A stretch of DNA of 64,000 nucleotides from Mogibacterium sp. GTDB lineage: Bacteria; Bacillota; Clostridia; Peptostreptococcales; Anaerovoracaceae. This document shows, piece after piece, positions 18,812 to 22,571 of the stretch. The first letter of the stretch is position 1. Each line of letters starts with the position of its first letter. The stretch lies in contig JAFRDH010000004.1 of the NCBI GenBank assembly GCA_017403955.1, forward strand, positions 1 to 64,000, in the 5' to 3' direction. A program made the translations under genes and the position numbers. The notes beneath the pieces were generated by a model. It had not been told where the DNA came from. It did not search any database and saw nothing but the letters and a program-made list of their open reading frames with translations.

Positions 18812-20662
18812 TTATGCGTTTGCATCTTCCTCTTCATCTTCGTCATCGACATCGCCGAAGATCCTTACATAATCCTCTTTGGATATTTCACCTGTCTTTG
18901 ACTTAGGAACGATCGTGTATTTCGTGCCTTTGTAGGTATAAGTGAACTTTGATGTTTTGACAGCTCCGCCGGACCCAACGTAGTAGTATTTGCCGTGATC
19001 CTCAACGAATGAGTCTGTCATGAGTCCGCCGCCGCTCTTGTTGTAATAATACTTCTTAGTTGCAGGGTCATAGAAAATACCCTTAGCAGTCCTCAGTGCG
19101 CCTTTTTCATTAGCGTAATAGTATTTGTTCTTCCACAGATAATATCCTGTCAGGATGGAACCATCAGTGTAAGCGCGGTATGTCTTGCCGCCGACTTTGA
19201 ATGACTTGTTCTTGTAGATCTTGGCTCCGCCGCCAACATAATACCTGTTGCCGGAGTTCTTGAAGAAACCTTTCTTTGTTCTGAGAACTCCCTTGGATGT
19301 TGAATAATACAGACCTTTCTTCCAGGTGAAGAATCCTGTATATATCACACCTTTCTTATTGGAGATATAGGATTTCTTCTTGGCCTTGAACTTCTTGTTG
19401 GTAACGATCTTGCCGCCTTTTTTGACGTAATAGTATTTGCCGTTGTATTTGACGATTCCGGCTTTGACTTTAACTACGCCTTTAGCATCAGAGTAGTAAT
19501 AATAGCCACTCCATTTGTGGACTCCGGTTATGACAACTGCATTAGTTCCTGCGTGATAGAGCTTTTTGCCGATCTTAAATTTCTTGTTGATAGTGAGGGC
19601 ACCGCTTGAATTCTTTACGTGATACCACTTACCGGAAACCTTCACAAGACCGGTCGTAGTACGGATCACTCCGCCGCTCTGAACGATATACTTGTTACTT
19701 CCGACGTTGAACGGTCCGACAGCTGTGCGGACAACACCATTTGCGTTCTGGATATAATAGGTCTTGTTTCCGACTTTGGTGAAGCCTACTTTAGTTACCA
19801 GTGAACCATCACTTGATGCGCAATAGTAGTAGCTTCCTGACTTGAAAACACCTGCGGTCGTGCGGATCTTTCCGTCAGCGCCAACATGCCATTTCTTATT
19901 CTGATATGTGATGTTAGCATCTTTGGTAAGGATCTTGCCGCCTGCGTTTGCAGGAATATAGTACTTTGAGCCGTCCTTGTCATAGACGAATCCTTCAGCA
20001 GTTCTGATAGCGCCGCCTTCCTCGGAATAATACTTAACATTCTTGTTGTCAGTAAATACGCCTTTCTCAGTTCTTATAGTCCCGTCAGGCTGCAGATAGT
20101 ATCCGGATACGATCCCCGGTTCGTGCTCGAAGTAAAAATCTCCATCCGGTCTGGACGGAATGTAGTATTTGACTTCAACGTCTGTTAATTTTGCGTCTGC
20201 GCCTGTCCAGCCTTTTTTGTCTGTGTCATAGATGAACTTGTCTTCACCTGCAGGTACAGAACAAATGCCGACAGTCTTTTCGACCCTGCCTGAAGGGGAG
20301 TGTGCATAGTACAGGCTGATAAAATCAGCATCCGCTATTGTCGGGGCTTTAAATAAGCCTGTAACAACGTTACCTTGACTGTCATAGATGAAGTCTCTGT
20401 TTTCACCCCAATCAGTGTAGATCCTTGACTCGCTGCCTGCGGCAGTAAGTACCGGTGCTGATACTGCGTCTTCATCATCTTCATTTACAAGGAGTTGATC
20501 TTCAGGCTCCTGCACTGCTTCCTGTTCATCGATGAGCAATTCTGCCTGCGGATTTTCATCCGGTGTCTCTCCATCTGCCGGAACAGTGTCTGCAAATGCA
20601 GCAGCAGGGCTGAGCATCAGAACCAGAGTCAGCAGATATATAAATGTTTTTCTCTTCATCAT
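18812..20662 (-). CDS. Secreted protein with cell-wall-binding-type repeats
   Basis: A 616-residue exported protein. Residues 1-24 form a signal peptide (KRK, hydrophobic stretch, AAAFA). An acidic linker follows to ~85. The rest is about 25 aromatic repeats of roughly 20 residues with a 'G(K/T)YYY...G..RT..G.F' pattern, typical of choline-binding-like cell-wall-binding repeats. The tail is very acidic (DDEDEEEDANA). No enzymatic domain is visible, so it may be a purely structural or adhesive surface protein. An extended -10 promoter is upstream, and the gene converges on the proX operon. Confidence 0.85.
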   Translation of the reverse strand: MMKRKTFIYLLTLVLMLSPAAAFADTVPADGETPDENPQAELLIDEQEAVQEPEDQLLVNEDDEDAVSAPVLTAAGSESRIYTDWGENRDFIYDSQGNVVTGLFKAPTIADADFISLYYAHSPSGRVEKTVGICSVPAGEDKFIYDTDKKGWTGADAKLTDVEVKYYIPSRPDGDFYFEHEPGIVSGYYLQPDGTIRTEKGVFTDNKNVKYYSEEGGAIRTAEGFVYDKDGSKYYIPANAGGKILTKDANITYQNKKWHVGADGKIRTTAGVFKSGSYYYCASSDGSLVTKVGFTKVGNKTYYIQNANGVVRTAVGPFNVGSNKYIVQSGGVIRTTTGLVKVSGKWYHVKNSSGALTINKKFKIGKKLYHAGTNAVVITGVHKWSGYYYYSDAKGVVKVKAGIVKYNGKYYYVKKGGKIVTNKKFKAKKKSYISNKKGVIYTGFFTWKKGLYYSTSKGVLRTKKGFFKNSGNRYYVGGGAKIYKNKSFKVGGKTYRAYTDGSILTGYYLWKNKYYYANEKGALRTAKGIFYDPATKKYYYNKSGGGLMTDSFVEDHGKYYYVGSGGAVKTSKFTYTYKGTKYTIVPKSKTGEISKEDYVRIFGDVDDEDEEEDANA

Positions 20663-20695: not shown

Positions 20696-20704
20696 ATTAT
20701 ATCA
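20696..20704 (-). promoter_or_regulatory. Extended -10 promoter of the repeat-protein gene
   Basis: TGATATAAT on the minus strand, 33 bases before the start codon. The same nine-base extended -10 occurs at 38797 and 48103. Confidence 0.55.
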
Positions 20705-20809
20705 TATTGCTGAACTCAACTATCGTTTCATCACCAATAATTCAGAAATGATTAAGAGTTCCGGGCAATTACGGTATCTTGGATTAAAAGAAAAACAAAA
20801 GCTATTTTG

Positions 20810-20838
20810 TTGCTTTTGACAAAAAATGATAGTAATAT
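20810..20838 (+). promoter_or_regulatory. Possible promoter of the leader-lyase transcript
   Basis: TTGCTT (20810-20815), 17 bases, TAATAT (20833-20838). A perfect TTGACA at 20816 lacks a matching -10, so the assignment is tentative. Confidence 0.4.
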
Positions 20839-20893
20839 TGTGCTCAAGTTCAAAAAACCCACAAATACTATTTATGAACAGGTGAACACGAAC

Positions 20894-20992
20894 ATGACAA
20901 AGATCAGAGTTAACACAGCAAAATATTATTACTACTATTACCGCTCATCAAGCGGCTGTTTTGCTGTGAGAAGTCGTCAAGTCATGAATTGA
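20894..20992 (+). CDS. Leader peptide with six consecutive tyrosine codons
   Basis: A 32-residue open frame, MTKIRVNTAK then YYYYYY then RSSSGCFAV..., sits between the promoter region and a strong terminator ahead of the beta-eliminating lyase gene. The tyrosine codons (20924-20941) are TAT TAT TAC TAC TAT TAC. They lie in the loop region of a hairpin whose stem is CACAGCAAAA (20914-20923) and TTTTGCTGTG (20959-20968), with an inner CCGC/GCGG stem. A run of one amino acid's codons, a hairpin and a downstream terminator form the classical layout of ribosome-mediated attenuation. A ribosome waiting for charged tRNA-Tyr would disrupt the hairpin. The start has a weak CAGGTG site nine bases upstream. 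Confidence 0.75.
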   Translation: MTKIRVNTAKYYYYYYRSSSGCFAVRSRQVMN

Positions 20993-21032
20993 TCCGGATC
21001 ATTATGCTTCCGAATCAGACAATGCAGATATG

Positions 21033-21065
21033 GCTCTTCCGGCAGACAGCCGGGAGAGCTTTTTT
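21033..21065 (+). terminator. Attenuator terminator before the lyase gene
   Basis: An 11-base-pair stem GCTCTTCCGGC / GCCGGGAGAGC (one G-U pair) with a five-base loop and six T residues. It lies 41 bases after the leader stop and 57 bases before the lyase start, so it must be read through for expression. Confidence 0.9.
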
Positions 21066-21122
21066 CATGTAATCAAGCAGTATTCACCCCTAGGGACTAA
21101 AGAAATCAGGAGGAACAAAACC

Positions 21123-22571
21123 ATGCCCGCTATTAAATTCTATGATCACGAACCTATTCCAATGGAGATGCACAAGGTAAAAATCGTGCAGCAGCTCACT
21201 CTTCTGCCTGCAGATCAGAGACTTCAGAAAATGAAAGAAGCCGGATTCAACACCTTCCAGCTCCACAATGGCGACATTTTTATGGATATGCTGACAGATT
21301 CCGGAGTAAATGCTATGAGCGACAAGCAGCTTGCAGGAATGATGACTCCTGACGATGCATATGCAGGGAGCGAGTCATTCTACCGTATGCAGGATAAGCT
21401 TGAAGAGATCTTCGGGATCAAAAATTGTCTGCCTGCACATCAGGGAAGAGCTTGCGAGAACATTCTGGCTACAAGATTCGTCAAGCCGGGCAACTGCGTG
21501 ATCATGAATTATCACTTCACAACTGCTAAAGCCCATATAACGAGGCTTGGCGGACATGTCGAAGAACTGGTAAAAGATGAAGGGCTTGTTTCGCACAGCG
21601 ACCTTCCGTTCAAAGGCGATATAGATATCGATAAGCTCGAAGCATGCATCGCAAAAGAAGGTGCAGACAATGTCTCATTCATGAGAATCGAATCAGGTAC
21701 AAACCTGATCGGCGGACAGCCTGTATCTCTGAAGAGCTTCAGAGAGGCTTGTGCAGTAGCGAAGAAGCATGGCATCATCTCGGTTCTTGACGCTTCACTT
21801 CTGCAGGACAATCTGTACTTCAATAAGATCCGTGAGGAAGAGTGCAAGGATATGACGATCAGGGAGATCACACGAGAGATCGCTGACCAGTTCGATATCA
21901 TCTATTTCTCAGCCCGCAAATTCGGCTTCGCACGTGGAGGAGCAATACTTGTCAGAGACGATGATCTTTTCCACTCTATGGAAGATCTGGTGCCTATGTT
22001 CGAAGGATTCCTGACATATGGCGGAATGTCTGTCAGAGAGATCGAGGCTATGACAGTAGGATTCGACGAGAGCATGGAGATGGATGTCATTTCGCAGGGA
22101 CCTCAGTTCATCGACTACACTGTCAAAAGACTTGATGAATATGGTGTGCCTGTTATAACTCCGGGAGGCGGACTCGGTGCGCATGTAGATGCAACCGAAT
22201 TTGTCAGCCATATCCCATCAGAAGAATATCCGGCAGGAGCTCTGACATGTGCTTTCTACCTTTGCGGAGGAATACGCGGTATGGAGAGAGGAACACTTTC
22301 TGAAGAAAGAAATCCGGACGGAAGTGAACGGATCGCTTCGATGGAACTTGTAAGACTCGCTCTCCCGAGACGTGTATTCACGCTTTCACAGGTCGAATAT
22401 GTTATCGACAGAGTCAAGTGGGTATTCGACCACAGACACCTTATCGGAGGACTCAGATTCGTCCATGAACCTGCAACACTGAGATTCTTTACCGGAAGAC
22501 TTGAAGCGACATCTGACTGGCCTGAAAAACTCGTTGAGGCATTCAAAGCTGATTTTGGAGAAGATCAATAG
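21123..22571 (+). CDS. Tryptophanase/tyrosine phenol-lyase family enzyme (divergent beta-eliminating lyase)
   Basis: A 482-residue PLP enzyme. It matches TnaA/Tpl along its length: 'LLTDSGVNAMSDKQLAGMM' (~57-74), 'YAGSESFY' (Tyr80), 'AHQGRACEN' (~102), Asp223 in 'LDAS', the PLP lysine in 'SARKFG' (Lys266), and 'GIRGMERG' (~380). TnaA/Tpl split tryptophan or tyrosine into indole or phenol, pyruvate and ammonia. Two usual residues differ: the Arg of the DATR motif is Leu226 (DASL) and the first Lys of KK is Arg265, so it is a distinct clade. The tyrosine-codon leader suggests tyrosine as substrate or signal. ATG 21123 follows AGGAGG. Confidence 0.85.
   Translation: MPAIKFYDHEPIPMEMHKVKIVQQLTLLPADQRLQKMKEAGFNTFQLHNGDIFMDMLTDSGVNAMSDKQLAGMMTPDDAYAGSESFYRMQDKLEEIFGIKNCLPAHQGRACENILATRFVKPGNCVIMNYHFTTAKAHITRLGGHVEELVKDEGLVSHSDLPFKGDIDIDKLEACIAKEGADNVSFMRIESGTNLIGGQPVSLKSFREACAVAKKHGIISVLDASLLQDNLYFNKIREEECKDMTIREITREIADQFDIIYFSARKFGFARGGAILVRDDDLFHSMEDLVPMFEGFLTYGGMSVREIEAMTVGFDESMEMDVISQGPQFIDYTVKRLDEYGVPVITPGGGLGAHVDATEFVSHIPSEEYPAGALTCAFYLCGGIRGMERGTLSEERNPDGSERIASMELVRLALPRRVFTLSQVEYVIDRVKWVFDHRHLIGGLRFVHEPATLRFFTGRLEATSDWPEKLVEAFKADFGEDQ

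Follow-up and report, generated by a model that had tools for sequence, protein, structure and literature searches.

What is a leader peptide with a run of tyrosine codons doing in front of a gene for a lyase of the TnaA/TPL family (tryptophanase and tyrosine phenol-lyase), enzymes whose known physiology is degradative? The window, that is, the whole stretch of 64,000 nucleotides from Mogibacterium sp. analysed here, carries on its forward strand a leader ORF of 32 codons plus a stop (20894–20992; product MTKIRVNTAKYYYYYYRSSSGCFAVRSRQVMN), preceded by a Shine-Dalgarno-like AGGTGA (20880–20885; read from the sequence) 8 nt before the ATG and containing six consecutive Tyr codons (20924–20941), the putative control codons. 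Folding and conservation place a hairpin, 1:2, around these codons, with its 5′ arm, segment 1, at 20914–20925, overlapping the first Tyr codon, and its 3′ arm at 20957–20968. Farther downstream lie a hairpin predicted by folding (20990–21017), in a linker that varies among relatives, an intrinsic terminator, 3:4 (21032–21065; a 12-pair stem at 21032–21060 and a T run), indicated by terminator prediction and by covariation, an AGGAGG (21108–21113), and the gene for a PLP lyase of 482 aa (21123–22571). These features, all on the plus strand, agree with an earlier note on this DNA, which had described the 32-codon frame with its six Tyr codons, the hairpin around them, and the terminator between the leader and a TnaA/TPL-family lyase gene. 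The 201 nt at 20870–21070 fold 4.56 SD below shuffles (z −4.56; 0 of 200 shuffles reach this value), and a scan of 20700–21130 against Rfam at E ≤ 1 matched no family, the T-box (RF00230) included. Upstream of the locus, the window also encodes a protein with an aminoacyl-tRNA editing domain (PF04073; 18226–18768), and similar proteins are encoded close to the lyase gene at six other loci (neighbourhood cluster). The minus strand (18812–20662) encodes a repeat protein of 616 aa that looks secreted, is rich in Tyr, Gly, and Lys, and weakly matches choline-binding repeats.

Taken alone, in a single genome, the Tyr run is weak evidence. In the window's own genome (G000), the TAY × 5 pattern occurs at one site, against three for the backward control pattern, and by such counts Tyr codon runs of this length do arise by chance. 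It is conservation that makes the observation solid. The closest lyases come from Mogibacterium-titled and other Clostridiales MAGs of the family Anaerovoracaceae, many from rumen or goat gut, and a close lyase (at least 83% identity) is present in 22 of the 40 genus genomes sampled (G304, whose sole lyase is a 38% relative, was scored as lyase-negative and would otherwise be a 23rd). A run of at least five Tyr codons lies directly 5′ of the lyase in 19 of these 22 genomes, and in the remaining three (G296, G283, and G318) the contig ends less than 250 nt from the lyase. The earlier note had proposed a comparison of orthologous leaders in the expectation of conserved Tyr runs with variable flanks, and this is the pattern found: over all lyase leaders seen, the run measures four to eight codons, the peptide flanks vary, and the RNA segments are kept. 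Among the relatives analysed, the best 80 of 131 lyase orthologue loci, a Tyr run precedes the gene in 18, a T-box motif in 5, and neither in 51, and 6 have less than 250 nt of upstream sequence. At locus L030, a group II intron match (positions 107–172; Rfam RF00029, 44.9 bits) separates the lyase from the place where the leader would be expected; the upstream sequence of this locus is that of L153 (G318). No gene among the 24 commonest neighbourhood clusters is a fixed-position partner in most Tyr-leader loci, and the viral-contig scan found no relative.

The earlier note had seen no convincing antiterminator and had supposed that the logic of the switch may be new; neither view holds. When the leader was folded for alternative structures, as the same note had suggested, segment 2 (20955–20977; GGCTGTTTTGCTG and onward) was found to pair with segment 3 (21030–21050), which overlaps the terminator in its 5′ arm and its loop, and this antiterminator helix, 2:3, supported by ribosome-masked folding and by covariation, is mutually exclusive with both the leader hairpin 1:2 and the terminator 3:4. 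In alignment A1, which comprises 24 lyase leaders and from whose sequences the helices were themselves drawn, 97.9% of cells are paired in 2:3, four of its pairs show two-sided changes, and its covariation score is reached by 0 of 500 shuffles, which take no account of kinship among the leaders; controls in which the helix was slid gave pairing of only 19–61%. The terminator, which has segment 3 in common with 2:3, is paired in 97.7% of cells in the same 24 leaders, with two-sided changes at six pairs. For 1:2, 92.9% of cells are paired in the 24 leaders, among which segment 1 aligns poorly in L035, L046, and L057, and the covariation score is reached by 226 of 500 shuffles; because covariation is no greater than in shuffles, this hairpin rests on conservation and folding. 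A1 includes L129, which has no gene between it and its contig end and is presumed to be the leader of the G283 lyase; left out were L114, L115, L142, and L143, which have other genes downstream, and L128, in which the script found no terminator. In L046 and L057, from MAGs of 0.8–0.9 Mb titled Saccharibacteria that have the lyase with a Tyr leader, the 2:3 duplex is about 19 pairs long.

To simulate the translating ribosome, the window leader was folded with the ribosome-covered RNA left out. With the ribosome at the first Tyr codon, the antiterminator is the best fold even when the whole terminator is present (−45.4 kcal/mol); at the third or the sixth Tyr codon, it is the best fold until the 3′ arm of the terminator has been made, after which the terminator is best; and with no ribosome, 1:2 and 3:4 form. 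Trp-type attenuators work through alternative 1:2, 2:3, and 3:4 helices, and three elements of such an attenuator are found here: a short, potentially translated ORF carrying consecutive Tyr codons, an intrinsic terminator between leader and gene, and, by sequence and folding, a 2:3 helix that excludes the terminator and would be freed by stalling at the Tyr codons. The presence of a covarying antiterminator argues for the logic of classical ribosome-mediated attenuation, and the leader is, in our judgement, very likely to be such an attenuator sensing charged tRNA-Tyr, with stalling and antitermination to be expected in vivo. When Tyr-tRNA is scarce, the ribosome would stall at the Tyr codons and cover segment 1, and segment 2 would then pair with segment 3 ahead of the synthesis of segment 4, so that no terminator would form and the lyase would be transcribed. 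When Tyr-tRNA is ample, translation would pass through the run, 1:2 and 3:4 would form, and transcription would stop.

Two other accounts of the leader can be weighed on the same data. One is that a chance short ORF happens to precede the ordinary terminator of an upstream transcript. However readily Tyr runs of this length arise by chance, the comparative data already contradict this account, with the run retained in every lyase-positive genus genome except the three cut by contig ends, two-sided changes at paired bases, and matches of the leader RNA across the family (see below), and we give it next to no credence. The other borrows from E. coli tnaC-tnaA, which is governed by tryptophan-induced nascent-peptide arrest and Rho: free tyrosine would arrest the nascent leader peptide and thereby induce the lyase by its substrate. 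A leader peptide does stand upstream of a gene of the tnaA/tpl family, as in tnaC-tnaA, whose lyase belongs to the same superfamily, but the logic of tnaC is opposite to that of the Tyr leader. Moreover, leaders differ in their peptide flanks and, past the Tyr run, even in reading frame (FAVRS, VAVLL, and GCFVAE) while the RNA is conserved, the leader ORF of the window is without any Trp codon, and the locus has an intrinsic terminator together with a covarying antiterminator. Because the peptide outside the Tyr run is not conserved, a tnaC-type arrest leader was rejected, and arrest by free tyrosine appears highly improbable.

Attenuation is established for E. coli trp, pheA, and pheST, where, in the account given by PMC11802643, a leader peptide with control codons likewise turns expression on at low charged tRNA; the present system differs in its Tyr codons, in having a TPL-family lyase among its targets, and in its Anaerovoracaceae host. 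The same source treats Corynebacterium, where trp and aroF attenuation is established and the AroR peptide has Phe-Tyr-Phe. Aromatic codons of C. glutamicum aroR-aroF control DAHP synthase, like those of the Tyr/Phe aroF leaders described below, but that system belongs to another phylum, is raised in expression under Phe limitation, and is given no lyase target in the parts of the source that concern it (PMC11802643). A third comparison is the uORFC-13-1 motif 5′ of aroF in Acholeplasma, for which a uORF and a terminator led to a prediction of attenuation (PMC8632094); set beside our leader by description, it differs in having at least one Phe codon and in being described, in the portion of that source that deals with it, only before aroF.

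The genes that share the leader RNA bear on the role of the lyase. R1, a covariance model built from the 24 lyase leaders, has matches in 100 of 349 Anaerovoracaceae genomes at E ≤ 0.01, the E-values being rough. Of the 118 matches listed, 70, mainly higher-scoring ones, were examined for the gene downstream, with gene identities taken from NCBIfam for ten representatives. DAHP synthase follows 37 of the 70, in 33 cases with TyrA next; the lyase follows 22 (mostly the training leaders of R1 itself), TyrS 4 (one of them in G000), TyrA directly 3, other genes 3, and a contig end 1. Tyr and Phe codons occur together in the leaders of aroF, and those of tyrA and tyrS contain runs of Tyr. A second, predicted Tyr leader of the window genome (L187; G000:C20:16774–16904; E 4.4e-4), with three Tyr codons (MNVRRLVAAIYYYDRTSTIED), lies directly 5′ of tyrS. 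Four more of the 118 matches were seen through the Tyr-codon pattern; leaders recognised by this pattern also stand 5′ of tyrA (G316) and, in G288, 5′ of an ABC transporter with a binding protein that resembles TrpX but scores below the cut-off of that model. The 3 of the 70 matches that have no tyrosine gene downstream are L182, L189, and L220, the last of which lacks a Tyr leader and is probably a false match. Tyr-run leaders at L182/L143 and L189 (G316) precede genes without an obvious link to tyrosine, namely, an endonuclease IV-like ORF (by eye) and a gene for an HD-domain protein, and at L115/L155 (G316) the tyrA behind a Tyr leader has an in-frame stop near its start, which may be an assembly error or a genuine change. 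A regulator common to the lyase, tyrS, tyrA, and aroF places the lyase among genes that serve to supply tyrosine and to charge its tRNA.

T-boxes (RF00230), which sense uncharged tRNA directly and are on at low tRNA charging, are absent at the window locus and precede lyase orthologues in other lineages. Among the best 80 of the 131 loci, a T-box lies 40–190 nt 5′ of the lyase in five that have no Tyr leader; those of L045, L047, and L052 score above the Rfam gathering score, and those of L059 and L072 reach 87.0 and 86.1 bits against a gathering score of 93. All five have UAC in the alignment at the position that we take to be the specifier. On the lyase tree, the T-box lyases, from Bacilli-titled and Oscillospiraceae genomes, fall into two separate groups among the sensor-less lyases, and the Tyr-leader lyases comprise a Mogibacterium-like group and the two from the MAGs titled Saccharibacteria. 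What the lyase is for is most strongly indicated by the two unrelated kinds of Tyr-tRNA sensor that precede this one gene. An attenuator that is on at low Tyr-tRNA would make the lyase a tyrosine-starvation gene, and the enzyme probably serves to supply tyrosine, its direction being read from its regulation.

The protein itself matches the TnaA/TPL subfamily model PRK13238 with 565 bits (NCBIfam) and misses the cut-offs of both equivalogs, with 433.4 against 720.7 bits for TPL (TIGR02618) and 332.7 against 825.8 bits for tryptophanase (TIGR02617). The solved structures nearest to it are TPLs (E 1e-116), followed by tryptophanases. In an alignment of 81 lyases, to which we applied what we take to be the TPL residue numbering, Thr124, Arg381, Arg100, Arg404, Lys257, Asn185, Asp214, and Tyr71 are kept in all sequences; Leu, Arg, and Phe replace TPL Arg217, Lys256, and Asp258 in 81 of 81, and position 288 is Phe or Tyr throughout. 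Thr124 and Arg381 are presumably the residues that read the phenol hydroxyl in TPL, and Arg217, Lys256, and Asp258 those next to its PLP site. The residue pattern, together with the missed cut-offs, marks out a distinct subfamily with the phenol-recognition residues of TPL. Elsewhere, tyrosine phenol-lyase is regulated through TyrR; it belongs to the same superfamily as the lyase, which keeps its Thr124 and Arg381 and is here predicted to be on at tyrosine starvation.

The TPL reaction is reversible. Run in reverse, the lyase would form tyrosine from phenol, pyruvate, and ammonia, or from phenol and serine, and the chance that phenol is indeed its substrate seems about even. That TPL can be run synthetically is documented in the context of L-DOPA (PMC7508748). 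Under the same attenuator, the enzyme might instead act on another β-substituted or phenolic substrate and yield a product that relieves tyrosine shortage, for instance, in the salvage of modified tyrosine. Scores below both equivalog cut-offs and the invariant Leu, Arg, and Phe at 217, 256, and 258, with Phe or Tyr at 288, would fit such a substrate; since TPLs are nearest among the solved structures and Thr124 and Arg381 are invariant, we consider it unlikely.

The aromatic pathway genes also bear on the role of the enzyme. In G000, which is 95% complete, no chorismate synthase (AroC), DAHP synthase, or prephenate dehydratase was found, and TyrA gave sub-threshold hits only; the host is an apparent aromatic auxotroph, in which the lyase most likely makes tyrosine. 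Within the genus, AroC is present in 6 of 22 genomes with a close lyase and in 13 of 18 without one (Fisher p 0.010; p 0.0008 without three genomes that share an aro region), in tests that ignore phylogeny and on genomes that are mostly MAGs of uneven completeness. In these three genomes (G286, G283, and G270; L148, L149, and L150), a 9-kb aro operon region is 99.93–99.96% identical and the lyase loci only 79–80% identical, and the common region reflects either bin contamination or very recent transfer. Three others (G265, G313, and G294) also keep AroC beside the lyase, that of G294 being a fragment at a contig end. That life without AroC does not require the lyase is shown by five of the 40 genus genomes, in which both are missing. 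In G082, where AroC, TyrA, PDT, and DAHPS are all present, the Tyr leader (L128) is kept and the lyase behind it has decayed, with only residues 6–94, 332–385, and 452–482 recognised. Outside the genus, in a comparison covering 20 of the 51 sensor-less loci and subject to the same caveats, AroC occurs in 2 of 7 genomes whose lyase has a Tyr sensor (L059 and L072) versus 19 of 20 sensor-less ones (p 0.0014). Absence of AroC goes with the Tyr sensor, and the lyase itself is not confined to AroC-less genomes; indeed, sensor-less lyases accompanied by AroC in 19 of 20 cases indicate that a link of the enzyme with tyrosine starvation or with auxotrophy does not hold everywhere.

The sensor-less loci are also an argument for regarding the lyase as a catabolic, tyrosine-degrading enzyme that uses Tyr-tRNA starvation as a general starvation signal. 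Such a role would accord with the degradative physiology known for TPL and TnaA, with the 51 of 80 loci (best 80 of 131) that lack a Tyr sensor, and with the regular presence of AroC in the sensor-less genomes tested; the commonest neighbour of the lyase overall is a divergent gene, LysR-type by eye, which is found at 18 of these 51 loci. Yet destroying the limiting amino acid would be self-defeating, two unrelated Tyr sensor types precede the gene, its regulon includes tyrS, tyrA, and aroF, and AroC is rarer where the lyase has a Tyr sensor, all of which makes a catabolic role quite improbable. The earlier note was right to remark that classical attenuation runs opposite to what a degradative enzyme needs, and its assumption that the lyase is catabolic is to be revised: the regulator shared with tyrS, tyrA, and aroF, the Tyr T-boxes, and the missing chorismate synthase mean that it is the enzyme, and not the switch, that needs reinterpreting.

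The reading we prefer, to which we assign a probability of roughly 0.7, joins a classical Tyr attenuator to a lyase that would supply tyrosine by the reverse TPL reaction. The switch belongs to a known class, and its use on a TPL-family lyase appears to be new: among the matches listed in the open-access literature searched, none describes a TPL-family gene under a Tyr-codon attenuator or a Tyr T-box, and none describes TPL as a physiological source of tyrosine. On a wider scale, with the odds evenly balanced, gut bacteria may possess a shikimate-independent route to tyrosine, in which a TPL-family lyase is run from phenol under a Tyr attenuator or, separately, Tyr T-boxes, replacing aroF-tyrA in the majority of its host genomes, which are without AroC, and backing it up in the rest.

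In the gut, TPL is described as a producer of phenol from dietary tyrosine (PMC11259132, in the part concerned with this enzyme). If a widespread relative of it makes tyrosine in the starved cell, gut bacteria could be exchanging phenol as a nutrient, annotations of the "tryptophanase" type in such genomes would be misleading, and the absence of shikimate genes could be an unsafe basis for calling tyrosine auxotrophy. The regulator of a reversible enzyme can thus reveal the direction in which the enzyme is used.
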